Source: Phlyctochytrium arcticum
Taxonomy: Eukaryota > Chytridiomycota > Chytridiomycetes > Chytridiales > Chytridiaceae
DNA length: 64,000 bases
Direction of reading: 5' to 3'
Assembly (NCBI GenBank): GCA_025602905.1
Contig: JAHLKI010000007.1
Location: forward strand, 186,001 to 250,000
Below are positions 47,900-64,000 of this stretch, in pieces (position 1 is the first letter of the stretch; every line of letters starts with the position of its first letter). The notes under the pieces are model-generated. The model saw nothing but the letters and a program-made list of their open reading frames with translations. It made no database searches and was not told the DNA's origin. The position numbers were made by a program, and so were the translations under genes.

Positions 47900-48690
47900 G
47901 ATCCCAAAACTATGTCTTGCTAATCATTACGAGCAATTGAATGATATTCATTCAAATACACTCCATCACTCGATATTTATATATTTCGGAGCTGCAATAC
48001 ATCCGGGATTGTCGCCTTTTAAACCACACAGAAGACATGGGAATGATGCATGCCCACCCTGCTAGGGCAAAAGGCACATCGAGCAAACAGTAATTTGCCA
48101 AGAGTAAATGCCAATCCCAGCTCAGAACGGACATGGGGTTGGTGCGCCTACAATGTCTCCGTCCTGCGCAAGCATCAATGTTTCCATCTGATGGCCTCCT
48201 GTAACCCCCAACCAGTGAATATAACTCGATTCTCACGAATCGTTTTGAGATGAACTTGAAATGCAGCCTGGAAGACCCCTATAATCAGACATGTCCGAGA
48301 ACGCTCGCTTCGTCGAGTATTCCTTGCTGTTCGTTTTACCCAGTGCCTGAGACAAGACCACCCGTTTTTGTTGCATGGTGGGATGTACCAGACCATAAGA
48401 GGTGTACGCACCTACCATACAGTATTTGTCTCCGAAGGAGCCCTTGGCGAAGCTGCATCATGATACTACCTGACTGATCAGCTGTTCGTGTTCATTGTTC
48501 AGTCAACCAGGACTCAAACTGAATTTCTCGAAATCTGCTTGAAAGGCCGATTGGCACAGTCATGGGAGCAACTTGGTGGTCTTTTGGGACCTTTTGGGTG
48601 AAGTTCCGCTGATTTCGCATTCAAAATCTGCAGAGCCCGTTGGTGAAACTCTTTCCAGGCCCCTGATCCTTTGCTCTACTCGGCCCCGCC
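47900..48690. other. Interval with no recognised gene; possible small spliced minus-strand gene
   Basis: Spacing and the alternating strand pattern suggest a small minus-strand gene divergent from RPB3. Candidate exon text on the minus strand includes an ATG near 48461 followed by a basic, import-signal-like start (MMQLRQGLLRRQI) and a downstream segment NSKEYSTKRAFSDMSDYRG (about 48330-48275). I could not join these with consistent splice sites, and no family is recognised. Confidence 0.25.
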
Positions 48691-49734
48691 ATGGATATTG
48701 ATCCAGTCAATATCTCCTTTTCGAATGCTTCGGCTCCGCAAGTCAATGTGACGGAGATCAGCAGGTCGACGGTTGCGTTTACTCTGAGCAACACAGATCT
48801 TTCCGTTGCCAATGCCTTGCGCCGCATTATGATATCGGAAGTACCAACAATGGCTATCGACCTGGTGGAAATAGATACAAATACGGTGGGTAGCATGTCT
48901 TTCTGGCAGCATGGTTAAGAATGACTCGTCGATACGTTTGCTGCACATCAACACATTTCTGAGCATCGGATATATGACCGACCACCTTCCATTCGTTGAA
49001 TCCCGTAGCAGAGTTTCATTTATTAAATTTCTCTTTGATTACAGACTGTTCTCTCCGACGAATTTATCGCACATCGTTTAGGAATGATACCCCTTATATC
49101 CACTGATGTCAAGCGAATTAGTTACACTAGGGATTGCAGTTGTGCCCAATACTGCCCGAGCTGCTCTGTGGAGCTGACGTTGAACGTTTCGTGCCATGCT
49201 GATACAACACGCGAAGTCTATGCTCGGGATTTGATATCAAGTCACCCAACAATAATACCGTTTGTTGAAGAACCCGAGTCTGAGCACGACAAGGGAGTGC
49301 TCATAGTCAAGCTCAAAAGAGGGGAGGAGCTACGCCTGCGTTGCATTGCCAAGAAAGGAACAGCAAAAGAACATGCCAAGTGGATGCCTTGTGCGGGTGT
49401 AGCTTTCGAATACGACCCTCACAACCGACTTCGACACACAACATATTGGTATGAAGAGGATATAAAAGCAGAGTGGCCAAGTAGCAAACACGCCGCGGAG
49501 GAACCAGAGCCTGATCCATCAGAGCCATTCGATTACAAAGCCAAGCCAAATCGCTTCTATTTCCAAGTGGAGTCTACAGGATCTTTAGAGCCAAGCGATA
49601 TAGTGGTTGGCGCGTTGGACGTGCTGACGGGCAAGTTGGCACAGCTGCAGATGTCATTGCAGAGTATTGCCAATGAACAGGGAGAGGTTGCAATTCCAGT
49701 TGATGATACGGCCCCAGGTGGTGCATATTATTGA
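48691..49734 (+). CDS. RPB3: RNA polymerase II subunit RPB3 (POLR2C)
   Basis: Alpha-like assembly subunit of RNA polymerase II, which dimerises with RPB11. Two exons. Exon 1 encodes [42 protein letters not shown] (seen in parts; human [30 protein letters not shown]). A 159-base intron (48886-49044), longer than most here, follows. Exon 2 has [18 protein letters not shown], the zinc-binding [17 protein letters not shown] (CxCxxxCxxC), [37 protein letters not shown] and [11 protein letters not shown]. The zinc cluster and EHAKW motif separate RPB3 from RPAC1. Start 48691 has a good ATG context. Confidence 0.95.
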
Positions 49735-49792
49735 CGAGCAACTATTTATGTAAATACAAGTACTTCGGAAATAGTCAATCTGTTCCATAGCA

Positions 49793-50252
49793 TTAGACTG
49801 TCCCCTTCTGCCAATGCTGTTCTACAGCGGATGCGCCAGAGAACATTTTCCTCCAAACATCACTGATTTGAGGACAAGCGGCTTGTATAGCTTTGGGGTC
49901 AATGACTGTCACTCACCTCCCTAAAGAACTATCTTTATTAAGAATGACATTCTCAGAATGTCTTCAATGCCCATGACACTATCGCACTCGAGTCGACCCT
50001 TCTTCTCATCATTCCTGAACTTTGAACAAGAAGAGTGACTTCTTCCTCGATCGTCCCATATAATGCCAGAAAGTCCAATGACTCTCAACCAAAGCAGCCC
50101 TCAGAACCCTGACTCTCATTCATAATCCATCACAAATTTTATATTCATCACAAGTATCGCTGAAAGTATCGAAGGCCAATTTCAAATCTCCCGGCGCAGC
50201 GAAAACGCGTGGCGATGCGCAGCTGCTCAAACTCCTGCCGTTTTCGTGACAT
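49793..50252 (-). CDS. Putative small spliced gene, unrecognised
   Basis: Inferred from protein-like text in an otherwise empty gap. On the minus strand an ATG at 50252 opens MSRKRQEFEQLRIATRF ... GLRYFQRYL. A middle segment near 50055-49990 reads LDFLALYGTIEEEVTLLVQSS. A last segment (about 49907-49793) reads IDPKAIQAACPQISDVWRKM and FSGASAVEQHWQKG before a TAA. The join between segments is not resolved and no family is recognised. It would be convergent with RPB3 and divergent from the rhamnose-pathway gene, fitting the local pattern. Confidence 0.3.
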
Positions 50253-50312
50253 CGCCTTCTCTTGCCATCGTTGATCTCAACCTCTTTAACCGACATCAAC
50301 AACATAGCAGAT

Positions 50313-51407
50313 ATGACCAACACTTCCTCTGAGGTTGGTGGATGTACTCGTCAAAGACGTTGGTCTTCCATCCCACTAACAGGCGTTGTCACAGCGTTAC
50401 CTGATTTTTGGTGGAAACGGCTGGATTGCCGGCCTCCTCAAAGAACTTCTAGAGAAAGAGGGCCGTGAAGTCAAGTCCACCACAGTTCGCTTGGAAGAGC
50501 GAGAGGCCGTGTCCAAGTACGTGCTGCTCAATTACTTTCCACGGGCAAAGAGCTGTCCTAACTCAATCTTTACAGAGAACTCGACAGCTACAAACCCACC
50601 CGAGTTCTCAACTGTGCCGGAGTTACTGGTCGCCCTAATGTTGACTGGTGCGAGGACAATAAGCAGGCCACTGTTCGCAGTAATGCAATCGGTACCCTGA
50701 ATCTGGCTGACTTGTGCTATCTCCGCAAAATCCACATGACCAACTTTGCTACCGGATGCATTTACGTTTACGATGACAAGCACCCGCCCCGTGGACTTAC
50801 TTTCAAGGAGGAGGACGAGCCGAACTTTGCTGGCTCTTACTACAGTTTCACCAAGGCTATGGTTGAGAAGGTTTGACGCATCCAAAGAAGTGTTTCCGAC
50901 TGCAGATCGCTGAACTATCTTCAAAAATCATAGATGATGAATGCTTATGACAATGTTCTCACTCTCCGTCTCCGTATGCCTGTTTCGGATGATCTTAACC
51001 CGCGTAACTTCGTCACCAAGATTACTAAGTACGAGCACGTTGTGGACATTCCAAACTCCAACACCATTCTTTTCGATCTGCTCCCTGCATCCATAGCCAT
51101 GGCAGACAACGGCTTGACTGGAGTCTACAACTTCACTAACCCTGGTGCAATTTCTCACAACGAGGTCCTGACTCTTTACAAGAAGTATGTCGACAACAAC
51201 TTCTCGTGGAAGAACTTTACCTTGGAGGAGCAAAGCAAGATTTTGAAGGCGGGCCGTAGTAACTGTGAGCTTGACACAACCAAGCTCACTTCAGCCCTCA
51301 AGAAGCTGGGCGTTCAAGTGCCAGCGATCCACGATGCATACGCGGCTTGCTTTCAACGTATGGCTGAGAACCAGAAAAACAAGCGTCCCCACACCTGGAA
51401 TGTTTAA
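50313..51407 (+). CDS. UDP-4-keto-6-deoxy-glucose 3,5-epimerase/4-reductase (NRS/ER, RHM C-terminal type)
   Basis: Bifunctional enzyme making UDP-L-rhamnose from UDP-4-keto-6-deoxyglucose, as in plant NRS/ER and the C-terminal half of RHM. Four exons (50313-50333, 50383-50516, 50576-50870, 50934-51407) total 307 residues. The short-chain dehydrogenase fold shows the nucleotide loop IFGGNGWIAG, the NCAGVTGRPNVDWCEDN block, the active-site YSFTK (YxxxK), LRLRMPVSDDLNPRNFVTKI and FTNPGAISHNEVL. A fungal cell would use rhamnose in wall glycans or glycoproteins. A partner 4,6-dehydratase is not in the window. A second partial copy starts at 63964. An inversion breakpoint lies 125 bases after the stop, but the coding region is intact. 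Confidence 0.9.
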
Positions 51408-51531
51408 GATACCCGCTTGCTACATTTTGGACCAACTACCCTGTACTTTTGATAACTCTTATTCTTGTATTATGCGTGCGCAATTTGCGCGGGACAATAT
51501 ATTAACTCTGGTCCTGAATGTGTTTCGTACT

Positions 51532-52734
51532 ATAGACACGGAAATGTATATGAAGATTTTCATCAAAGGCAAACTTTGTTATGTGCGACTCAACAAATCA
51601 ATATACGGGCTGAAGCAATCGCCCAGACTACGGAACAAAACAATTGATGAATATCTTCGGTCACTTGGTTTCCAGCCATCAGCATACGACATCGCATTTT
51701 ACTTTCGATTTGACGACAGCGGAAATATATCTAGAATGATATCTTTGTATGTGGATGACCTGACTATTTGTACCAAGGACCTGAGCGAGATGCAGAAAAT
51801 CAAGGATGGGCTAGCCTCACGTTTTGACATGGAAGACATGGGTGAACTGGCATTCATCTTAGGACTTGAAGTAAAACGAGACAGAGCGAAACGGATTCTA
51901 ACTCTTTCCCAAAACAAGTACATCGATGACATCTTGGCGCGGTTCAAGTTGGGACATTTACCTGGAGTAACAACACCTTTCGATCACAAGAAGAATTTAT
52001 CCCTTAATGAGCTGGAACAAGAAGTGGATGTCAAGGAATACCAATCGATGGTAGGAAGTCTTATGTATCTGGTGATGGGGACCCGCCCAGACCTAGCATA
52101 CACGGTATCAAAGTTATCCCAGTTCTTGAGCAAGCCGAAGAAATCCCACCGAGAAGCAGCTATCCACGCCCTCAGATACGCAAAGTATTCACAAAGTTGG
52201 AAATTGACATACGGGTCCTCATCCTCCCCGAGTCTTGCGCCACTAGGATACTCAGATGCGGACTATGCCAAATGTACCGACACAAGACGCAGTACCAGCG
52301 GGTACGTCTTTATGTTAAACGGGGGAGCGATCAGCTGGAAAGCTCAACGACAGCGCACTACGGCTCAATCTACAGCGGAAGCGGAGTATGTGGCGTTGGC
52401 AGAAGCAACGAAGGAGGCAGTCTGGCTCAAGAACTTCATGCAAGAGGTACTAGGAGGTCACGGAATAGCGAACGACCCTATTACAATTCGAGAAGACAAC
52501 ATGGCAGCGATACACCTGGCGAAAAATCCCGTGGACCACCAACGTACGAAGCACATCGACATACGATATCACCTCACCCGCGAATGCGTGCAAAATCAAC
52601 AGATTGTCCTGGAGTACTGTCCTAGCGAGGACATGCTAGCCGATTCTCTCACCAAGCCCTTCCCAAGACCACGCAACGAGTTTCTACGGGAGAAGATGGG
52701 ACTACGCGCGGACTCAGCTTCGGGGGAGTGTTGA
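51532..52734 (+). CDS. Copia Pol fragment: C-terminal reverse transcriptase and RNase H
   Basis: Open frame with no start of its own. Reverse transcriptase text runs RLNKSIYGLKQSPR (fingers/palm), then LYVDDLTI, the catalytic YVDD near 51748-51760, then MGELAFILGLEV and YQSMVGSLMYL. RNase H follows with GYSDADYAKCTDTRRSTSGY, TAQSTAEAEYVAL and REDNMAAIHLAKN, and the family ending TKHIDIRYHL. The first catalytic Asp (in MDVITAFLN) is missing here because it lies in the other half. The stop codon lies 6 bases inside the LTR. The frame can be extended left into the NRS/ER gene, but that is a different frame of that gene and not a fusion. Confidence 0.9.
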   Translation: MDTEMYMKIFIKGKLCYVRLNKSIYGLKQSPRLRNKTIDEYLRSLGFQPSAYDIAFYFRFDDSGNISRMISLYVDDLTICTKDLSEMQKIKDGLASRFDMEDMGELAFILGLEVKRDRAKRILTLSQNKYIDDILARFKLGHLPGVTTPFDHKKNLSLNELEQEVDVKEYQSMVGSLMYLVMGTRPDLAYTVSKLSQFLSKPKKSHREAAIHALRYAKYSQSWKLTYGSSSSPSLAPLGYSDADYAKCTDTRRSTSGYVFMLNGGAISWKAQRQRTTAQSTAEAEYVALAEATKEAVWLKNFMQEVLGGHGIANDPITIREDNMAAIHLAKNPVDHQRTKHIDIRYHLTRECVQNQQIVLEYCPSEDMLADSLTKPFPRPRNEFLREKMGLRADSASGEC

Positions 52735-52995
52735 GATGTGAACTGGAGCAAGTGTGGGAAGCTGGGAGTCTTAAGTCATGTAGCCAATTTTAGATAGATT
52801 ATTAGTACACGTGAGCATGGGAACGCGTCTCTACGCGTACCGTTGGCGTCGTTAGATAGCAGACTGCTTGGCAGCTTAGAACTACAACCGTTTTCTTCTC
52901 AATACATTTCTTCATCGCAACAACCAACTAATCGCTCTGCGACCAGTATATGACTATCGTGACCAGGAGGTGCCATCAGAGACCTTGTTACGACA
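52729..52995 (+). repeat. 3' long terminal repeat, 267 bases
   Basis: Starts TGTTGAGATGTG and ends TTGTTACGACA, with TG...CA ends. The reverse complement of 63128-63394 is the same length and differs by eye at one base (T against G in the CCGTTTTC/CCGGTTTC stretch near 52890). Confidence 0.95.
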
Positions 52996-53000
52996 TGACA
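52996..53000 (+). repeat. Target site duplication TGACA (right flank of the 3' LTR)
   Basis: The five bases after the 3' LTR are TGACA. The five bases before the distant 5' LTR, read on the minus strand at 63399-63395, are also TGACA. Confidence 0.85.
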
Positions 53001-53505
53001 GTGCATTCTCTGTGTATTGTACATATACTACGTGTACATCATCTTTGAGACTGTTTCTCCCACGGTGTCTTTATCATGGAGAGCTGAAAAAAGTATTTAC
53101 TTGCAACTCACCGTAATTCAACAATGATCACGGGAAGAAAGTTTTAGACCGGATTCGTACAGAAAATTTATTTCTCGCAACGTCAGGTCTGTATGGCGTA
53201 TGTGCATGTCCCTGACCGTCGAAAGACACGTTTCTCCCACGATGTTAGGTCAGATTAAAGACCAAAAACGGAATAGATGCTATAACACGGTGAGTCGCTT
53301 GACGCTGTTTAATCTGTCCCTCTGTAACAATGAGGCGGTACAAATTATGACGAATAAGCGCTAGATTGGTATGGGAAATGCAGTGCAGAATCTTGAATTG
53401 AATTTACAAGTAAAAGAAGCAGAAAGACACGTGAAGCAGAAAAATAACAGGATGAGCAAGGAAATGGGAATTGTTGAATCATGGGGTGATTGTGAATCAA
53501 GTATC
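53001..53505. other. Interval between LTR and next ORF, no gene seen
   Basis: AT-rich sequence with many stops. The motif GTTTCTCCCACG occurs twice (about 53053 and 53230). It should contain the 3' region of the minus-strand ORF that ends at 53506. Confidence 0.4.
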
Positions 53506-54549
53506 TTAAACTCTCAGTGCGGGATCCGCCATGAGGTTGACATATGACGGGTGAGTGTAGTAGGTGGGATTGGCAACGTGAGGACCGTTTGGAACGCGTG
53601 CTCCTGCCATCGACAATCGTTTCGTGGGCACCACCGGATATTGTGAAGTGGGATGTGGTCGTGAATGTTCGCATGGGAAATGCTGCTGATGATTGTTTCC
53701 AGCGGGGACTGGCCTGATGCATTTTCCTGGTGCTGTGCAGGGGAGTGCGAGAGGAAGACTTGGACGGCGAACAAAGATGGATGTGCGGCCACTCCGACTA
53801 GTTCGACGCATGGACATAGACGAGCCATAGGCAACGTCGTTATGGTTGTTCTTGTTCTCCATATAGGAAGTAGGACGTGCTGCAGGGAACGCGTAGGCCG
53901 TTTTAGAGCGGGGTGCCGGCACCATGCCTTGAGAGTATGAACGAACGTGTCCTCGTTGACTAGCGAGAGCCTTCTGTTGGACCACATACAGGGGGCACTC
54001 ATCCTCCTCGGCCCAGTGAGCATTGCTGGAAACACTACAAACTGAGTTTGACTCGGGGGAATACCATGTCCAGGACTTGCCACTCGGACGCTCCCAGCTC
54101 GCTCCGATGGAAACACCCGAGTCCGCGCGTGAGACCCGGGATGCGAGAGATGCTGTATCGATATAAATTTTGGATGGAATCCTGACTGGAGTGACTTGAG
54201 TCAAAATCCTCCTTGGCCCCTTGGCGGCATCGGGAATTGCATGAGACCACGCCTTGCTATTGCTTGATCTTGGTAACTTCAAGCGCACTGGTGCATTGAA
54301 AACGCTCGCGCATCGCTCCCGGCGAGTAGTAGTCTGCTTGGAAATATCTGCGGGTATATTCACTACTAGCGAGCGTTCTAATTTGGCAGGATTTAATTTG
54401 GAGCGTTGCCGGCAGGATGGGGTAGGTGAATTTGGGGAGGGTGCTTTTGACGGTTCCTTTGCAGATTGGGGTAACTTGCTTGTGTAAAAGTCCTCGGAGG
54501 TATAGGCGTCCCAAGCTGCTTTCTTGAGGGATTTGAAGAAAGAGACCAT
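53506..54549 (-). CDS. Unrecognised 347-residue protein, single exon
   Basis: ATG-initiated open frame of 347 codons. The N-terminus is amphipathic (MVSFFKSLKKAAWDAY). The remainder is rich in Ser, Pro, Arg and Asn with few hydrophobic runs, so it is probably disordered. Recurrent short basic-Ser motifs (RRTSRSGRTS, TKRLSMAG) look like kinase sites. No signal peptide or membrane segment, and no family recognised. It lies within the inverted segment, so its present neighbours are recent. A plus-strand shadow at 53665-53940 is weaker. Confidence 0.6.
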   Translation of the reverse strand: MVSFFKSLKKAAWDAYTSEDFYTSKLPQSAKEPSKAPSPNSPTPSCRQRSKLNPAKLERSLVVNIPADISKQTTTRRERCASVFNAPVRLKLPRSSNSKAWSHAIPDAAKGPRRILTQVTPVRIPSKIYIDTASLASRVSRADSGVSIGASWERPSGKSWTWYSPESNSVCSVSSNAHWAEEDECPLYVVQQKALASQRGHVRSYSQGMVPAPRSKTAYAFPAARPTSYMENKNNHNDVAYGSSMSMRRTSRSGRTSIFVRRPSLPLALPCTAPGKCIRPVPAGNNHQQHFPCEHSRPHPTSQYPVVPTKRLSMAGARVPNGPHVANPTYYTHPSYVNLMADPALRV

Positions 54550-56823
54550 GCTTGGGTACGGGAATTGTTAATAGGTCGCCAGCGGAGGTAAGCGTCGCAA
54601 GGTATATAGGGCTCTGAATAGAGTGGAACGCACAATTGTGTGTTGGCAGGATTAATGCCGAGGGGATAGGTGCTACCCAGTCAGTTATACTTGCAACAGT
54701 TACCAAGGAGGGAAAGAGTGGGTAAAGTAAGGATTCGGGTGACAAACATATTGACACCCGTACACGGCCATGTCCCAATGTCCCATGATACTCCCACATC
54801 GCCGTGTTTGAATTCGATCGCGACCAGCTTTTCCGGCCCTGTCAAATCGGTACAGACTGTCTTACAGTCAATCAATGTAAGACAGACATAACCTCCCAGC
54901 TGCAAGCATCCACTTAGAATTACCACGTCGGGGAGAGCGTCAATGTTTCTGAAGCAAGCGTCCTGCTCGACCAATAGGAGGATTATGCTCGACCAATAGA
55001 GGGAGACAAACCCAAACCTTTTTTCGCTAGGAAAATAGAATTGCGGTAGGCCTGCTCAAAACACAACTTTTGTGCTCTGCTTTGCGAAACATCCTAGGCA
55101 TAAGCGCTGATCTCGGACTCCGCCTGGATCATACAGTACCCGCAATTTACACTAACGACTCGAGACCCCAGCCTTCTCAAATGCAGACAACTTGGTAGTT
55201 GACATGCTCTTGATAGATAGCAGTTTTATTCATATCGCTGAAGCTCTCTCCATGGCCTTGCTCGTTGTGAGATCCATCGCAATAATTTACATACACAGAA
55301 ATGGGACTTTCCAGTCAGTTTGGAAATTAATTGAATTAATTATATTCTTGGTCTTCGAGTGTAGGGGTAAGCCATCAATTTCTCGGATTGAGATTGGATT
55401 CGAGTTTCAAGAAAAGTAAGTACCGCAACATCATGGTATAAATGGTTGAGACAGGAATGAAGTAAAAAATTGGATTGTCGCTAGATTTCCGATGATACCG
55501 TAAGTGTGAAGACGTGGAAGATGGTTGGAGATACTAGACCATGTATTTGGCAATAATGGCGCGCCCGGTGCCTGTATAAGATACTTTAAAATTAGGTGAG
55601 GATGGGTGGGTTAAAAGATCGTATATCCTGTCGAAGCAAGGGTAAATGCCTTTTGGGGAAGCCCAGGGGATAGAGGGGATAGATCCGGTACGCAGAGAGT
55701 ACGGTACCGTAATATTCCTTCGGGTATTTCCGGAATTTGCACTTATGCACCTCCGATGTATTCCGAGGCATAAGTAGGCGGGATAAGAATGATGTACGGT
55801 ATGCAGGTATGAATTCAAATGTTTCTTCAAGACAATATGCATCAGTGTACCAAACGCTACATTACACCAATGCTTTGATTTTCGAAAGAGCCGTTCGGTC
55901 ACTGTATTCATTCATTAATTCTTTCTTTTTTCTGGTTTCACATTCATTGATAATCGGAAATCATCGGAAGTCGGAAAGTGTCGGAAGTGGAGAATAAGAA
56001 AGCACGGAAGCATCCGAAGCAGTGATTTGGGGGATAAATTAGCAGCTAGGTAGAAGTACGGTAGGCTGCTTGACGTTGAATAATCTAGTCTCATCAATGA
56101 CATTGTCCTTGCATGTTGGTGTTTCCGAATGCCTCCTGATCAGAATCAGAAAACTATGAGTGCTTCTCAAACGGCGTTGGCCTTCAACAGTTGTATTTTG
56201 TGGACCATATTTCTGTGATTGGCCTATTGTTGTTTGTCGTTCAATATAGAGGCAAGCATCTCCCACGGCCGGCCTGGGAACAACCCTGCATGCATGCATG
56301 GGACCGCGTCAGGGCCGCGCGGAAGTCGAAATCTTTCCGACCACGTTCCCCACCGTATATATATATCGAATAACACCAGCAACGGCGCCAGAAAAGATTC
56401 TTCGCTGTGTGCGAGACTGGCTATTCAAGTATGGCTGTGGATACCGGAGGACACCAATGGATGTGCAGTTAGGAATAAATTTGTTTCATGTATATAATCT
56501 AAGCAATATGGGCAGTACTGTGAATTGAATTGAGCAACCGCGGTCGGAAAGTGGAAACACGGAGGAAAACTCCTGGCAGTTGTATTTCTGATCGGACAGT
56601 TTCAAATTATAGTGAGTTCACTGGATGTGGCCATAGTGACATACTATAGACAACCTTCGGCTACTAAAGATGGTGCCGGTAAACCGTCCGTCGTTTCTTT
56701 TCTTACCCTGCTTCTTCCATCATCACCCATCGCTCTTTTCAAGCTCATTCGATCGCCATCCTTTCATCTGCCAATCCTTTGGCGGAGGTCAACGATTTAC
56801 CACTACACATCCGGCACCAAAGG
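54550..56823. other. 2.3-kb interval without a recognised gene
   Basis: Holds the promoter of the 347-aa ORF on the left and of the Crinkler-like gene on the right. Open frames are short, many lack an ATG, and none looks like a known family. It includes a pair of CCAAT-containing direct repeats (see separate entry), an alternating CATGCATGCATGG at about 56289-56301 and a TATATATATAT at about 56357-56367. Unusually long for this gene-dense window. Confidence 0.5.
54964..54999. repeat. Tandem direct repeat with CCAAT boxes
   Basis: TGCTCGACCAATAG occurs at 54964-54977 and again at 54986-54999, a 22-base period or about two helical turns. Each copy holds CCAAT on the plus strand. It is 415-450 bases upstream of the minus-strand ORF start at 54549, so it could be a promoter element. 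Confidence 0.6.
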
Positions 56824-59738
56824 ATGTCAGAATTGAGCTATGTATTTTCACAATTGGGCGAAGTGGAGTCGGAAACGGGTCTGAACCGCAACTTTGATGT
56901 TGTGGGAGGGAACTCGGTGAATTCTGACCTCTTGTATGGAAATGAAGACGGGGATTACTCAGATATTCGCCGGCCGCACATGGCCTACTCTACGCAATAT
57001 CAAAACATGGATAGTACCGCGGGTGTGGGTCAACGACGCCCAATCTTTTCCGTCTCTTCGATTGACTCCTTCGATGAGCGCTCCGTCAGTTCACTTCACT
57101 CTCGAGCAGTCATGAGCGTAGCTTCTCATGGGATACCTCGATCGTCAATTCGCCGTCTCTTAAACCCAACAAACTCCATTAAATGTAAGCGTTTGCACCA
57201 GCACAGAGCTATCCATTTCATTGCTGAAATTCTAATGATTTCATTCTATTTCAGCTGACACTTCGACTTTTTCGACTCGGCGGCGTGATGATACACCACC
57301 TACTCATTGCTTTTCACTTAATGGATTGCTGTACGGCGATGATCCCGAGCGTACATTCACTATACAAGTTACCGCGGATATGACCATTGCTACGGTGCGC
57401 AAAGTATTGACTGCTGAGTTGTGGGGACGTTCAGAAAACCTTCGCCCAATGGATCTTCGAATTTATCGCGCCGACGAGTTGCTGAAACCCAACGATCCTC
57501 GACTATTGACGCTCGCCTCTTTTCCGGCCGAGCAGCAACCAAATATTGAAACCTTCTTTGCAGTCACCAAACTTTCCGATCCCCTCGATTCCGTTTCTGA
57601 CCACTTCAATATTCCTGACCAATCCATATCCTCTTTTAACAAACATGTGCATTTTCTTCTTTGTGTTACAGCCCGGGCGACTGTGTCCTCTCTGCATGCT
57701 GGGGGCCAGGCATCAATGGATCTTTCTTTAGGGAGGACAGGCAGTCTCCCGTCTGCCGATCTTTCCCGTACCCTGGCCGATAGCTCAAATTACATATCCG
57801 GATTAGGAAGTATCAGCTCCTCTCGATCCCAGGACAGGCTGCTGTATAGTGACATGCAAAGAAAAGTGTATGGGTCAACTGTTCAGTCCGTTCGATCTCA
57901 CCAAGGGCAAAGATTAAGAGATGCGATATTCGGAAAGAACGGAAGCAATAAGAAGCGTGGGAAAATAATTCTTATTGGACTGGCAACATTCACCTTTACC
58001 GCACTCATTCTGGGTCTTACTCTGGGTCTAGTGCTCCGTCGACAACAACCCCCGGAACCAGTAAAGTTGGGGTTCCAGACAATGCAATTGGATCCTAGTC
58101 AACGGATTGCACTGCCGAAAAGTGTACTCCAAAGGGGCATCGCCCTGCATGGCGACATGTTATTTGCTTTTAACAATGGCACGGTCACCAGGTTCAATGC
58201 CAAGACTGGGGCGCGAGAATTTGATCTTGAAGGAGTATCTACTCTTTTGATAAGTTTGAAAATCGACTCCACGGGACAAAAGATTTACAGCGCCGGACGA
58301 AGCCGGATTACTTCGCATGATACGTCCACCGGGAAATCGCTGAGTGAATACAGCTTGATGGAAAACAACACGACAGTCGATGAGGTCCTTTATCAAATTG
58401 ATCTTTCGGCTGACGATCAGGTACTTTTAGCATCGCAAGCTCAAGCATCTATCTATACTAATGTTTTTGTGTTATACTCAGTTTTTGTACATTGCAAGCT
58501 CGTCAAGAACTCGACGGGTTAGCACGTCTCCGCTAGGGGAGAATCCCGTGTTTTACACGGAAGCAGGAATAAATGCCGTTACCGACGTGAACATTTTGGG
58601 TAATAGCCTATTCGCGGCCGCTGATGATGATCTCGTTCGACTTTACGATGCAAATACGGGGAATGCCATCCGTACATATGCGGGACTGGATCAGAATGCA
58701 CAAGCTATCGTCGTCTCCTCAGATCGATCAGTAGTGTATGGCTTAGCCAGTTTTGTAATTCAATGGAACGTACAGACTGGCGAACGACTGAAAACATTCA
58801 CGATAACCAATACAACGAATCAAGGATTGGACAAGCTACTTCCCTCAAACGACAATAACTTCCTCTATGTTGGAACCTCCGGCGAGCCGAGCGCCCCAGA
58901 CCCGTTTGCAGTCGCAGAATATGATGTGCGGACTGGTAGAGTTTCACGATACTTTGTCGGGCATACCGCCAAAGTAGGTGAAATGGTCATGTCCAAGGAT
59001 GGCACGCGTTTATTCACGTACGGCAGCGATTCAAACATTTTGATATGGGATCTGACCACCAAAGGGACCGTTATCACGCAATCTAAAGGAATCGCCATGG
59101 ACTTTGAATTGCCAAGTCCTCCTAAAGATGATGCCAAGGTTGCACCACAACCTGCACCGGTACCTGCGTCATCCGCATCGTCTGCAATTCCGCGTACCCA
59201 AACACTCTCATCAAGAACGACGGTCGCTGCCAAGTCGCGTGCATCCCCTACAGGAACTCTTCCACCGGTTGATTCTGGTACCGGTTCAAGACCAAAGACT
59301 GCACCAAAGGCAAAGACTATTCCAAAGGTCACACCAAAGGCCCAATCAAGAAAGCCAATCCAAACCTCAAGGCCACCCAAAAGATCCACTCGGAGTACGC
59401 TTACCACTACAATTCCCACGCGCACCGCGCGTGTAATCACCGCAGCAACTCTTCCGCCTGGCGGTTCTGGCGGTTCTGGTGGTTCTGCTTCCGGCTCCAA
59501 ACCAAAAGCCGTACCAAGAGTTGCATCAAAAACTCCCAGCGCCGAAGTTGACACATACGAAGATGGCAGCGCATCTTCATCAAAAGAAGCAACACCCATT
59601 CCAAGGAAGCCTGCGATAGACCCTCTCGAAGTCAAGACTGTCACTGTAACAAGATACATCACGGTTCTTATGAATGCCACTCAATCAACAGCAAAAGCAA
59701 CACCCGCAGCTGCCCTTCCGAGTGTTAGCAACCTCTGA
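56824..59738 (+). CDS. Crinkler-header-like domain, membrane segment and beta-propeller protein
   Basis: Three exons (introns 57185-57254 and 58421-58481) give 927 residues, and the joins keep the frame. Residues 1-135 are Ser-rich. Residues about 136-230 (CFSLNGLLYGDDPERTFTIQV ... LRPMDLRIYRADELLKP ... TKLSDPLDSVSDHF) resemble the ubiquitin-like header of Crinkler/CRN-RHS proteins, which ends in a similar leucine-rich KLSDYF-type block. One membrane helix, about 357-382, is preceded by GSNKKRGK, favouring a type II topology with the propeller outside. Residues about 390-710 hold WD/YVTN-like blades (DDQFLYIASSS, DLVRLYDANTGNAIRTY, NILIWDLTTKGT). The tail is Ser/Pro/Lys-rich with repeated Lys-Pro motifs. 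The header call is by general resemblance. No nuclease-like CRN C-terminus is present. Confidence 0.65.
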
Positions 59739-59756
59739 AGATTATCCCTAGTAATC

Positions 59757-60353
59757 CTACGTTGTATCGCATGTCGCATACTTTCCTGAACTGTCTATGT
59801 CGCTGTTCAGAAATGCCGTGATAACATCCATTTGATGTATTTCCAAGTCCAACCATGCCGCAATCGCTAACATAACTCTCAATGTTGTAAATCTCACAAC
59901 TGGCGCGTATGTCTCGTCGTAGTCAATCCCTGGCCTTTGCTTATCTCCCCGAGCGACTACTCGCGATTTTAGTTTCTTGATTGTATGGTCCGGGTTGCGC
60001 TTTACACGATAGACCCATTTGGAATCAACCACGTAGCAGCCAGCTGGAATGTCCGATGGCTCCACGAACGTCCAAGTTCCATTTTTTTCATGGGAGTTGA
60101 GCTCTTTCTCCATGCTTCTCTCCCAATCCGGCTTGTATTTTGAACTTATCGCTTGCTTGTATGATTTGGGTTCTTCAACGTCGTCCACCGGTGCTGAGTA
60201 ATTAGCTTCCAAGTCAACAATCTTTCTTCCTTCAAAGTCGCTGATAGCATCACAATCCGGAATATCATCGAACAGTTCCCAGCTTGGAATTTCGTCGTGT
60301 CGCCACTTAACAAGGTAACTAAATACTTGAATCCTCATTAATTTTCCTAGCAA
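59757..60353 (-). CDS. Copia Pol fragment: end of chromodomain-like module and N-terminal reverse transcriptase
   Basis: Open frame without its own start. It opens FSYLVKWRHDEIPSWEL (chromodomain-like), then the copia RT entry block YKPDWERSMEKELNSHEKNGTW, then DSKWVYRVKRNPDHTI, KSRVVARGDKQRPGIDYDETYAPVVRF and MDVITAFLNSDI, whose Asp is the first catalytic residue. Element sequence ends at 59793; the last 12 or so codons to the stop at 59757 are read from host DNA. Frame differs by one base from the integrase frame upstream. Confidence 0.88.
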   Translation of the reverse strand: MLGKLMRIQVFSYLVKWRHDEIPSWELFDDIPDCDAISDFEGRKIVDLEANYSAPVDDVEEPKSYKQAISSKYKPDWERSMEKELNSHEKNGTWTFVEPSDIPAGCYVVDSKWVYRVKRNPDHTIKKLKSRVVARGDKQRPGIDYDETYAPVVRFTTLRVMLAIAAWLDLEIHQMDVITAFLNSDIDSSGKYATCDTT

Positions 60354-60372
60354 TGATAGCTTCCACGAGCTC
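60231..60372 (-). other. Chromodomain-like module between integrase and reverse transcriptase
   Basis: Split over two frames by one base. The integrase frame ends with LVEAIIARKINED and the next frame continues SYLVKWRHDEIPSWE, then DIPDCDAISDFE. The spacing of YLVKW, the following W-E pair and the DC..I..FE helix matches chromodomains (YLVKWKGY..NTWEPE...C..LI..F). Such modules are well known at integrase ends in Ty3-type chromoviruses but are not usual in copia elements. Confidence 0.65.
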
Positions 60373-61386
60373 CGCGTCGGGTGGATCTTCTTCAGATCCC
60401 TCAGCCCTTGTTACGTGATTTGCCTCATTGAAGGTGACATCCCGACTTTCCAAAACTTCATTGTTTTCCTCGTCGTAAAGCCTATACGATAGCTCTTTGG
60501 TGTCACTGTAGCCAATTAGACGGTATGGACCAGCGGCACGCGGAGCCAATTTTCGAGGACGCTTGCGGTATTTCTTGGTTACATGCACAAATGCTTCGCT
60601 CCAGACAATGCGCAAATGGCCCACCGGCGGCTTTAGACCGAAAAACCGCTCATACGGTGACTTCCATTCGATTACTCTGCTGGGCGTAAGTTGTCGCAAC
60701 TTGTTAACGGTCTTCGCTATCTCCCCCCACAGTTTGAGCGGGATTTTGTGGTGATGCAGGATTGCGCGTATTTGGTTAAGCAGGGTCAAATTGTACTGTT
60801 CCGAGACCGGGTTCTGCTGCGAGGAGTACGGTTGGGTCGTTGTAACTCGCAGTCCAATTTCTTCCGCTTCGCCTAAGAGTTCGTGGTTAATGAACTCTCC
60901 GCCATTATCACACCGCAATTCTTTGATCTTTTTGTTGTGGAGACGCTCAACATAAACGCGATATTCAACCCAATAGCCATATGCCTCGTTCTTCTTTTTT
61001 AGCAAATAAATTGTTGGATACCGGGACCACTCATCTATGAACGTCAAGATATAGATGTATTTTCCAAGTGAGGGCATGTCGACGTGGCAAATGTCTGTGA
61101 CAACCCTATCCAAGATGGCCTGCGCTGGACGTGGATTTTCATTGTTGAAAGGGAGTCTGTGGCCTTTCCCGTACTCGCATCCTACGCAGGTCGTCGTGTA
61201 TTGTATTGTGGTGTCAATTTTCAGTCCGAGCCCATATGTGGAGCTCGCTTGCTTGAGGGCTTTGATTCCGGGGTGGCCAAATCGGAGATGATACAGGCGT
61301 AGTTTAGCGACATTCCGGTCGCATCTTTTCCCGACTTCTTCTTGCTTCGCCCGCTGGCGGTTGATTTTTGCAAGGAGTCCTTCAGC
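60319..61386 (-). CDS. Copia Pol fragment: pre-integrase zinc finger and integrase
   Basis: Open from 61386 to a TAG ending at 60319. The pre-integrase finger shows LYHLRFGHPGIKAL and CVGCEYGK (HHCC type). The catalytic core starts TDICHVDMPSLGKYIYILTFIDEWSRYP, with the second acidic residue in RCDNGGEFIN and a PYSSQQNPVSEQYN block where the third Glu is expected. Copia integrase normally has GxxE here and this copy reads PVSE. The C-terminus continues RLIGYSDTKELSYRLYD and ends in EAIIARKINED, the first strand of the chromodomain-like module. The gag-protease frame lies one register away. Confidence 0.87.
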   Translation of the reverse strand, partial: AEGLLAKINRQRAKQEEVGKRCDRNVAKLRLYHLRFGHPGIKALKQASSTYGLGLKIDTTIQYTTTCVGCEYGKGHRLPFNNENPRPAQAILDRVVTDICHVDMPSLGKYIYILTFIDEWSRYPTIYLLKKKNEAYGYWVEYRVYVERLHNKKIKELRCDNGGEFINHELLGEAEEIGLRVTTTQPYSSQQNPVSEQYNLTLLNQIRAILHHHKIPLKLWGEIAKTVNKLRQLTPSRVIEWKSPYERFFGLKPPVGHLRIVWSEAFVHVTKKYRKRPRKLAPRAAGPYRLIGYSDTKELSYRLYDEENNEVLESRDVTFNEANHVTRAEGSEEDPPDAELVEAIIARKINEDSSI

Positions 61387-63062
61387 CTATCTTCAGTGAT
61401 GGATGTGGTAAAAGCTTCCGGTTCAAAGTCCGTGTATCCGACGACAAATGGCAAATTCTGATGTACGCGCACGTCCAAAACTTTTTCGCGTGTTCTCTTG
61501 TCGTAAATTCCACTAGCAGTCGATCCATTTCCTTCCAAACAAGTGCCAAGATTCGCGGGAAGACACTGCGTGGATAATAGATTTCGAGGATAATCCGGCA
61601 CATACAGAACATCTTGAATAGTCACTTTCTTCGAGTCGTCATCAGGATTGTAAATGGTGAGTTTCCCCACGCCAAGCGCTGTTGCGGGAGCATTACCAAC
61701 ACGTCCACCATTGACTGGAATAGGTTTATCGAAAGGCTGGTAATCTTCCACCAAGAACTGATCTTTCATAATGTGCGCCGTCGTAGCTGAATCCACCGCT
61801 ATGGAGTACGGAGATTGTCGATGTGTTGCTAGAGTTAGAAGATTTGCCTCCACGTTCGTGAAATTGCTTTCGTACTTGCTTCCTGATTGTTGCGCTCTGA
61901 AAGCCTTGTACTCCGGACACTCCTTCGCGAAATGCCCTTCTTTCTCGCAAAGAAAACAGCTTGTTTTGCGCGGGCGCTTGCTATATTTGTTGGTACCCTT
62001 GTACTTTGATCCCGACTTTCCTGACGATGGCTGCGATGAGTGTGCCTCCACGACCAATCCTTTCGTGCTACTGTGTCCCTTGGATGTAGTGTCGTCCTGT
62101 CTCAATGCCGCCATCTTCAAAGCTTCAGTTGTCTTCAAATTGTCCATGTGGCTGCTCACAAGTTTCTTTACGCCTTTGTCTAACCCTCGTAGATATATGT
62201 GCTTCTTTTCTTCGAAAGTCATTGTCGGCAATTGCATGGTCAAATTGTCGAAATTGTCGTTATAGGCAAGTACAGAATCCTTTTGCTGAAGTCGATCAAG
62301 TTTTGCGCGAATCAATTCTTCATGTTCCGGGGGCGTAAATCTCGCACGTAATGCCGCTTGCATTTCCAACCACGTTCTGATACTAAGTGCCTCCCTAGAT
62401 TCAACCAATGATCCCCACCATAGGTCCGCTGTTCCCGTCAACTCTCCGGTAACAAACACAACTTCGGCTCGTGGGGGAAGTTCCGCAATGCGAAAGTAGG
62501 AGTCGGTTTTTCGAATAAATTCGAACAAGGCTTGCGGCTTTCTGATGTCTCCTGCAAACATCGGAACTGCCCTCTCTGTAGCCTTAAGCAAGCTCTCCGC
62601 TGAGACTTGCTGAGATACCACGCTGGATCTCACTGAATTCGCTCCTGGTGAAGTAGGTCGATTTTCCTCGTCATAATCTGTCCGTTGACTAGTCTGATGG
62701 TGGAATGGGGTCGTCTCACGCCGCTGCGTAAGATGGGAATTACGGTTGTCCTCTTCCTTGATTGGCTCAACATAATCCCGAGATAATAACTGGTGTAGCA
62801 AGGATGTCATGGTGCTCATATCGTTTCTGATAAGATCCAGTTCGTTTTCAAGGTCCCGCCGGCCTCGATTTCTGAGTTCGCTGTCAAGGTCCCGCTGACC
62901 TCGATCGGAAAAACGTTCAGTTTCGTTGTCCTCAGCATCCCATCGTCCTTCCTCCGCTCCATGCTGCAAATCCTGTTCAATGATCCTCAGTTCCTGTCGT
63001 GAAGGTCGATTCTGGTCGTGGCCCGCTGGCCGTCCTTCTTGTGTGGGGCTTCTTGGAGTCAT
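61221..63062 (-). CDS. Copia Gag and aspartic protease
   Basis: ATG at 63062, 66 bases after the 5' LTR. About the first 130 residues are Arg/Glu-rich. The Gag core (UBN2/retrotrans_gag type) shows ELTGTADLWWGSLVES, LEMQAALRARFTPPEHEEL and DNFDNLTMQLPTMTFEEKKHIYLRGL. A CCHC zinc knuckle follows, CFLCEKEGHFAKEC. The protease has SIAVDSATTAHI, a DSA in place of the usual DSG, then IQDVLYVPDYPRNLLS, the usual copia block. The last codons to 61221 are an out-of-frame overlap with the pre-integrase finger, so this frame stops being meaningful at about 61340-61386. Confidence 0.9.
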   Translation of the reverse strand: MTPRSPTQEGRPAGHDQNRPSRQELRIIEQDLQHGAEEGRWDAEDNETERFSDRGQRDLDSELRNRGRRDLENELDLIRNDMSTMTSLLHQLLSRDYVEPIKEEDNRNSHLTQRRETTPFHHQTSQRTDYDEENRPTSPGANSVRSSVVSQQVSAESLLKATERAVPMFAGDIRKPQALFEFIRKTDSYFRIAELPPRAEVVFVTGELTGTADLWWGSLVESREALSIRTWLEMQAALRARFTPPEHEELIRAKLDRLQQKDSVLAYNDNFDNLTMQLPTMTFEEKKHIYLRGLDKGVKKLVSSHMDNLKTTEALKMAALRQDDTTSKGHSSTKGLVVEAHSSQPSSGKSGSKYKGTNKYSKRPRKTSCFLCEKEGHFAKECPEYKAFRAQQSGSKYESNFTNVEANLLTLATHRQSPYSIAVDSATTAHIMKDQFLVEDYQPFDKPIPVNGGRVGNAPATALGVGKLTIYNPDDDSKKVTIQDVLYVPDYPRNLLSTQCLPANLGTCLEGNGSTASGIYDKRTREKVLDVRVHQNLPFVVGYTDFEPEAFTTSITEDRLKDSLQKSTASGRSKKKSGKDATGMSLNYACIISDLATPESKPSSKRAPHMGSD

Positions 63063-63113
63063 TCTTGCAGCTGGTCAACACTCTTCAAGGGTTTCCTAAC
63101 TAATCTCTAGAGC

Positions 63114-63127
63114 CAGGGCTCATAACC
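63114..63127 (-). other. Primer binding site for half initiator methionine tRNA
   Basis: Immediately inside the 5' LTR the minus strand reads GGTTATGAGCCCTG. This is complementary to CAGGGCTCATAACC, the anticodon arm of eukaryotic initiator tRNA-Met, not to a tRNA 3' end. Drosophila copia and yeast Ty5 prime from a cleaved 5' half of the same tRNA. Confidence 0.8.
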
Positions 63128-63394
63128 TGTCGTAACAAGGTCTCTGATGGCACCTCCTGGTCACGATAGTCATATACTGGTCGCAGAGCGATTAGTTGGT
63201 TGTTGCGATGAAGAAATGTATTGAGAAGAAACCGGTTGTAGTTCTAAGCTGCCAAGCAGTCTGCTATCTAACGACGCCAACGGTACGCGTAGAGACGCGT
63301 TCCCATGCTCACGTGTACTAATAATCTATCTAAAATTGGCTACATGACTTAAGACTCCCAGCTTCCCACACTTGCTCCAGTTCACATCTCAACA
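63128..63394 (-). repeat. 5' long terminal repeat, 267 bases
   Basis: Reverse complement of the LTR at 52729-52995 with about one difference and identical ends (TGTTGAG...ACGACA). It is followed inward by the primer site and then the Gag ATG. Confidence 0.95.
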
Positions 63395-63399
63395 TGTCA
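63395..63399 (-). repeat. Target site duplication TGACA (left flank of the 5' LTR)
   Basis: On the minus strand the five bases before the 5' LTR are TGACA, the same as those after the LTR at 52995. This pairs the two distant LTRs as one insertion. Confidence 0.85.
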
Positions 63400-63963
63400 T
63401 ATACTACAAGTGATGCCAGTGTGTCCCGCTTACGTGGTCTCTAATGGATGATGGCGCAAACGACGACTCACCTGACACACCACGGTTTGCGAACAGGTAC
63501 ATGCATCCTGAGTCCTGAGGGACGCTTATGGAAAGTTGGGGAAGGGCACCCTGATATGGGAATGAGGTTCGTGTTTGTTCAGATATTCCCAAGGGCCGAT
63601 AAACATATTGATTCTCGGACAAGAAGAGGCAACTGCAACAGGGATGTCCGCAACCACCAAAGTATCCGATCATAGTCCTGATGCACAACCAGAGCACTTT
63701 TAAACTTTACCAGGAGTGATTATAGGACCCCTCTGAATAAAAAGTTCCCACATCCCCGGTCAGATGCAACCTTCCTTGCATGCCCAGGACCTCATATACA
63801 AGTGTCCCTACAAGCTCTGGGCTACGATGTCAGTGTTACCCTGTTGCTGCGCTGTACACCATCCCAGCCTGTACTTACCGCAGCTAGAAGCCCAGAAGAC
63901 AGTTACAATTGTCCACAATCGCTGGTTTGCTGGGAAAACTCTGGTCTTTCAGTCCAGCGAACC
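63400..63963. other. Interval between retrotransposon and second NRS/ER piece
   Basis: No gene recognised. Open frames on both strands are short and of unlikely composition. In the uninverted order this is the host sequence flanking the insertion. Confidence 0.4.
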
Positions 63964-64000
63964 ACTGGAGATTACAACTTCACCAATCCTGGTGCAATTT
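63964..64000 (+). CDS. Start of a second NRS/ER-like copy, cut by the window
   Basis: The last 37 bases match 51117-51153 of the NRS/ER gene at 33 positions, in the same orientation, and encode TGDYNFTNPGAI against TGVYNFTNPGAI. Three of the four differences are at third codon positions or change only Val to Asp. Sequence upstream of 63964 does not match the first copy. This is therefore either a 5'-truncated duplicate, a copy with an intron placed differently, or a rearranged paralogue. Too short to tell gene from pseudogene. Confidence 0.6.

Follow-up and report, generated by a model that had tools for sequence, protein, structure and literature searches.

Two pieces of a copia-type retrotransposon lie in opposite orientation within the 64,000-nucleotide window of Phlyctochytrium arcticum DNA analysed here (C7:186001-250000; genome searched, the 31.48-Mb assembly in 91 contigs). 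Among the best 120 of 764 matches to an open frame of its RPB3 gene, the closest is Spizellomyces punctatus (78%) and the named ones after it are further chytrids, which points to a chytrid fungus near Spizellomyces. The locus raises the question of whether these pieces are two insertions or a single one that was later cut in two. The sequence-only reading had proposed a single insertion that was later split by an inversion of 8.3 kb, and that proposal is backed by contiguous copies of the element elsewhere in the genome, by a rebuilt empty site and by a tandem paralogue in uninverted order. As the best explanation of the locus, we consider it very probable that a copia insertion was followed by two breaks and by the reversed end joining of the 8.3-kb segment between them.

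A copia element divided within reverse transcriptase

In its long terminal repeats (LTRs), 5-bp target-site duplication (TSD), integrase ahead of reverse transcriptase (RT), RVT_2 domain and internal tRNA-Met primer (as in Drosophila copia), the element resembles Ty1/copia LTR retrotransposons; it is unlike them in that the searches run found no close named relative. The LTRs begin with TG and end with CA. Both were claimed to be 267 bases long and about one base apart, which is what alignment returned, with a single mismatch at position 163 (1/267). The TSD is TGACA here and ACTTC around the copy on C2; as had been noticed for the outer flanks, TGACA stands after the 3' LTR and before the 5' LTR when each is read in the element's own direction (Table 1). 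Matches to rve and SH3 in 60322-61113 (-) are followed by RVT_2 (PF07727), the copia-type RT family, which matches at 59760-60353 (-) and again within the 3' piece; the E values of the pieces, 4.4e-23 and 4.3e-29, pass the curated cut-off. The domain is indeed split so that the first Asp and YVDD lie in different halves: the break falls between QMDV and YVDD, with QMDVITAFLNSDID at the end of the 5' piece and LYVDDLT in the 3' piece. The 3' piece presumably also holds the RNase H region, which was assigned by position only, and the 5' piece is made up of several open frames.

A GGGGGAG purine tract precedes the 3' LTR, and a primer binding site adjoins the 5' LTR. The latter pairs with the interior of a tRNA-Met gene, in a half-tRNA-like manner, and not with its 3' end. 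In Drosophila copia the primer is likewise an internal fragment of initiator tRNA-Met. The 12-base core of the site occurs at 22 genomic places, two of which are the C2 and C7 elements, and ARAGORN, run with bacterial settings, called a tRNA in one of 12 fetched core loci. At the protein level, the gag part matched at 41% to the better of two matches (7,996 candidates scored), and the RT part at 63-64% to metagenome proteins and at 49% to Powellomyces hirtus among the best 120 of 3,207 matches. A comparison of the RT piece with solved structures found none at 1e-3, and a search of five proteins against NCBIfam gave integrase-like matches only, every one below cut-off.

Table 1 Features of the divided element, the inverted segment and the adjoining host DNA (window coordinates; those above 64000 run on into locus L017)
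Feature	Position	Strand	Remarks
UDP-rhamnose-synthase-like protein, C-terminal part, open frame	50934-51407	+	break falls 124 bp past the end of its stop codon
Inverted segment	51532-59798		8,267 bp; each end placed to within 7 bases
Heptamer ATAGACA, left junction	51532-51538	+	
3' piece of copia element	51532-52995	+	second RT part with YVDD, presumed RNase H region, 3' LTR; RVT_2 match in 51265-52731
3' LTR	52729-52995	+	267 bp
TSD TGACA adjoining 3' LTR	52996-53000	+	
Host DNA inside inversion	53001-59791	+	two probable genes
Probable minus-strand gene	~53.4-54.8 kb	-	paralogue in C30, 76%
Probable WD40-like gene	~57.2-59.7 kb	+	plus frames 57326-58522 and 58461-59738
Heptamer ATAGACA, right junction	59792-59798	-	
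5' piece of copia element	59793-63394	-	5' LTR, gag, integrase, first RT part
Primer binding site	63114-63127	-	14 bases complementary to tRNA-Met gene positions 26-39
5' LTR	63128-63394	-	267 bp; 1 base unlike 3' LTR
TSD adjoining 5' LTR	63395-63399	-	TGTCA on plus = TGACA on minus strand
Start of tandem paralogue unit	63964-64000	+	continues to extended coordinate 67632 (L017), uninverted order

Contiguous copies, the empty site and the ancestral order

The two halves had been described as meeting at one point in RT, with a comparison against other copies of the family as the check. In the near-identical long copies on C2 and C59, the two pieces run together and join at the C7 break point. 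On C2 they match 1644240-1645692 and 1645687-1649282, with both LTRs present and a TSD of ACTTC; on C59 they match 56189-57652 and 53649-56194, and the 5' end is absent. The 6-base overlap between the matches in both copies is the hexamer carried by both query pieces. The 3' and 5' pieces are ~99% identical to the C59 and C2 copies, and a third long relative, on C12, is 75% identical and likewise contiguous. Copy numbers are lower bounds, as the genome searches score the best candidates only. The sequence beside the cut in the truncated C59 copy belongs to another repeat family; other repeats adjoin this 5' cut (L019, C59:50001-53648), among them a 331-bp repeat with copies in many places and a large one whose arms are inverted.

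When the outer flanks were joined through TGACA, the rebuilt site aligned unbroken to three of four tested members of a dispersed repeat (L039, L041 and L042), and for each of these three every one of 1,000 random left flanks scored below the true flank. With the fourth member, L038, the alignment starts only past the join, and the true flank was equalled in score by all 1,000 random ones. The dispersed repeat is ~250-280 bp long, lies at 53001-53241 and has many partial genomic copies of 66-80% identity, some of them in tandem; the element sits inside one.

The order before the inversion can be read from an old duplication to the right of the element, 73-83% identical to the host region. In this tandem paralogue, a rhamnose-synthase-like fragment (+) at 63964-64064 is followed by minus-strand matches to 59721-59586, 59469-56660 and 56608-56374. 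Synthase fragment (+) and then WD40-like gene (-) is the order obtained in the window once the inversion is undone. The joined host site scored 115 unshuffled against at most 107 with the left host flank shuffled (200 shuffles). Alone, 51408-51531 gave a local score of 35 to the paralogue, equalled in 2 of 1,000 shuffles, and the homology of the left flank reaches to within ~3 bases of the break. The first 71 bases on the inner side of the break (59722-59792) could not be told from shuffled sequence in their match to the paralogue, 268 of 1,000 shuffles being as good. The sole other match to 48500-51531 in a genome search was a stretch of 101 bp belonging to the paralogue. The same assembly was also searched for a second allele of the host segment, and none was seen: the segment matched the tandem paralogue (73-83%), the C30 paralogue of the minus-strand gene (76%) and short repeats.

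The breakpoints and the joining of the segment

In the explanation that we favour, a Ty1/copia element entered the minus strand within the dispersed host repeat, with duplication of the 5-bp TGACA, a step that the sequence itself shows. Two DNA breaks would have followed later, one inside the RT gene and the other ~8.3 kb leftward between genes that were then convergent; end joining, with no part played by homologous recombination, would then have put the segment between them back in reverse. The junctions have 7 bp in common, and the element side has lost nothing; the heptamer may have existed at both sites and been used, or may have been duplicated when a staggered cut was filled in. The rearrangement may have been tolerated because it cut none of the host reading frames recognised here, a matter of position that can be seen in Table 1. 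Neither break is in an LTR, and joining of the two breaks by end joining is most likely.

The sequence-only reading placed the hexamer ATAGAC at both breakpoints in opposite orientation. That the motif is shared and opposed stands; its length does not, being seven bases (ATAGACA) and not six, so that either break can be placed only within 7 bases. We give about equal odds to the heptamer being micro-homology already at both sites and to its having been duplicated when a staggered cut, made in the element, was filled in. Seven or more shared bases are found at ~4e-4 of random site pairs (six or more, 1.4e-3), which favours micro-homology; so does the single ATAGACA of the paralogue (64202-64208; L017 1202-1208), which lies near, but not at, the matching place, against an expectation of 0.017 occurrences for 282 bases of that strand. 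Position 51531 aligns to 64231, 29 bases off, and forcing the paralogue heptamer at 64202 to correspond with the junction dropped the score to 81. A staggered cut with fill-in, on the other hand, gives the same pattern without coincidence. On that reading the sequence would have been single-copy before the inversion; ATAGACA is repeated inversely at both junctions and is present, unchanged, at the matching place in C59 (one base is changed in C2). The heptamer is missing from the aligned place in the paralogue, although the alignment there is weak. The paralogue favours neither reading: its alignment scored 120 with the heptamer absent against 117 with it present, a score that 524 of 1,000 random 7-mers equalled or exceeded, and 115 against 117 for the hexamer, where 60.8% of 500 random hexamers were as good. 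The window holds eight occurrences of ATAGACA on either strand, including those at the junctions.

Inverted duplications at both breakpoints are given as the mark of staggered breaks with end joining in PMC3355041, PMC5080602 and PMC12368964, and the duplications described in the passages concerned span at least 128 bp. Inversions 2h and 2q of D. mojavensis and O4 and O8 of D. subobscura, resemble the present case in that the inverted segment is flanked by an oppositely oriented repeat. The present inversion, by contrast, is just 8.3 kb long with a repeat of just 7 bp, and one of its breaks falls within a single retrotransposon, the TSD of which shows the earlier state. In D. mojavensis, four of 14 breakpoints are reported to fall between pre-existing duplicated genes (PMC3355041; PMC5080602). 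A transposable element at both inversion ends is a feature shared with Galileo in Drosophila (PMC2775673) and with tandem transposon insertions in cod (PMC12368964); in those cases copies recombine, whereas here a single copy was cut in two. The event is of a known kind, in which one break of an inversion falls within a transposable element; end joining is its most likely mechanism.

An assembler could instead have flipped the segment, and element copies that are ~99% alike might have confused it. A flip through the inverted 267-bp LTRs would however break within the LTRs, which neither of the observed breaks does; the left break is in host sequence for which a close second copy was not found in the genome, the two sites share just 7 bases, and 50001-64000 is free of N runs. 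We regard such an artefact as very improbable. Still less probable is ectopic recombination between inverted repeat copies, even though PMC2775673 and PMC12368964 describe it as an established route from transposable elements to inversions: homologous element copies were not found at both ancestral sites, the search of the left host flank having returned no element sequence, and the mechanism is unlikely because both breaks avoid the LTRs and no more than 7 bp are common to the sites. Two separate truncated insertions in chance opposite orientation are scarcely credible, for although truncated copies such as that on C59 exist, the two pieces are truncated complementarily at one point within 7 bases, share TGACA, rebuild an empty site and carry similar numbers of private substitutions (5/1,453 and 4/2,544 sites; Fisher p 0.30). 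We also weighed self-integration, in which the element's own DNA copy would have been the target, and set it aside, since the inversion holds host DNA and the shared sequence is 7 bp against the family's 5-bp TSD.

Host genes, age and the inverted LTRs

That two whole genes are carried in the inversion, as first read, is plausible from the paralogue matches. Frame 58461-59738 has its stop codon 60 bp before the right end of the segment. This frame matched 16 beta-propeller/WD40 families with a best E value of 5e-14; all matches were below curated cut-offs, so 'WD40-like' is the furthest permissible label. Differences to the paralogue across 57326-58522 and 58461-59738 showed a third-position excess in four of eight 300-base windows, were flat or nearly so in three and ran contrary in one (57560). 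No Pfam or NCBIfam family was found for the first part of the protein predicted from 57326-59738 (+), in which a possible ubiquitin-like start and a transmembrane stretch were noted by eye. To the left of the break, the synthase-like frame has solved-structure relatives 4qqr and 7jid. The synthase-like and WD40-like genes would have been convergent neighbours before the inversion.

The suggestion that the events are recent was borne out in relative terms. The LTR divergence of 1/267 is 0.37% (Poisson 95% range 0.009-2.1%), and nine of 3,997 sites carry substitutions private to the C7 copy when three copies are compared, the count for the 5' piece coming from only the part present in all three. 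With LTRs so alike the insertion is recent, and the inversion, being younger, is recent too; its age is thus relative, and the LTRs set an upper limit. The locus offers an unusually clear record of a small inversion in a chytrid-like fungus, most likely made by end joining, through which a tandem gene duplication passed from direct to inverted orientation. Its earlier state can be recovered without a second strain, from the TSD, the contiguous copies, the rebuilt empty site and the tandem paralogue.

The LTRs now form a 267-bp inverted repeat, and recombination between them would flip 10.1 kb and not delete it. That this makes the locus a switch is an unlikely possibility. If it were one, an LTR-LTR flip of 10.1 kb with one or two host genes could go back and forth in the population, and the insertion would have left the usual route of decay to a solo LTR, a route suggested by isolated LTRs of the family, nine of 12 of which have an exact 5-bp TSD. 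The other three are on C18 (4 bases), at C10:320710 and at C19:517317, the last two being incomplete. A search for tRNA neighbours of LTR copies (bacterial settings) called one tRNA in 14 loci, and a targeting pattern was not seen there. Two weaker LTR-like matches lie beyond the examined set (C13:267991 and C8:806189). At one further locus (L023, C8:716444-717597), two isolated LTRs stand in opposite orientation 628 bp apart, each with its own 5-bp TSD.
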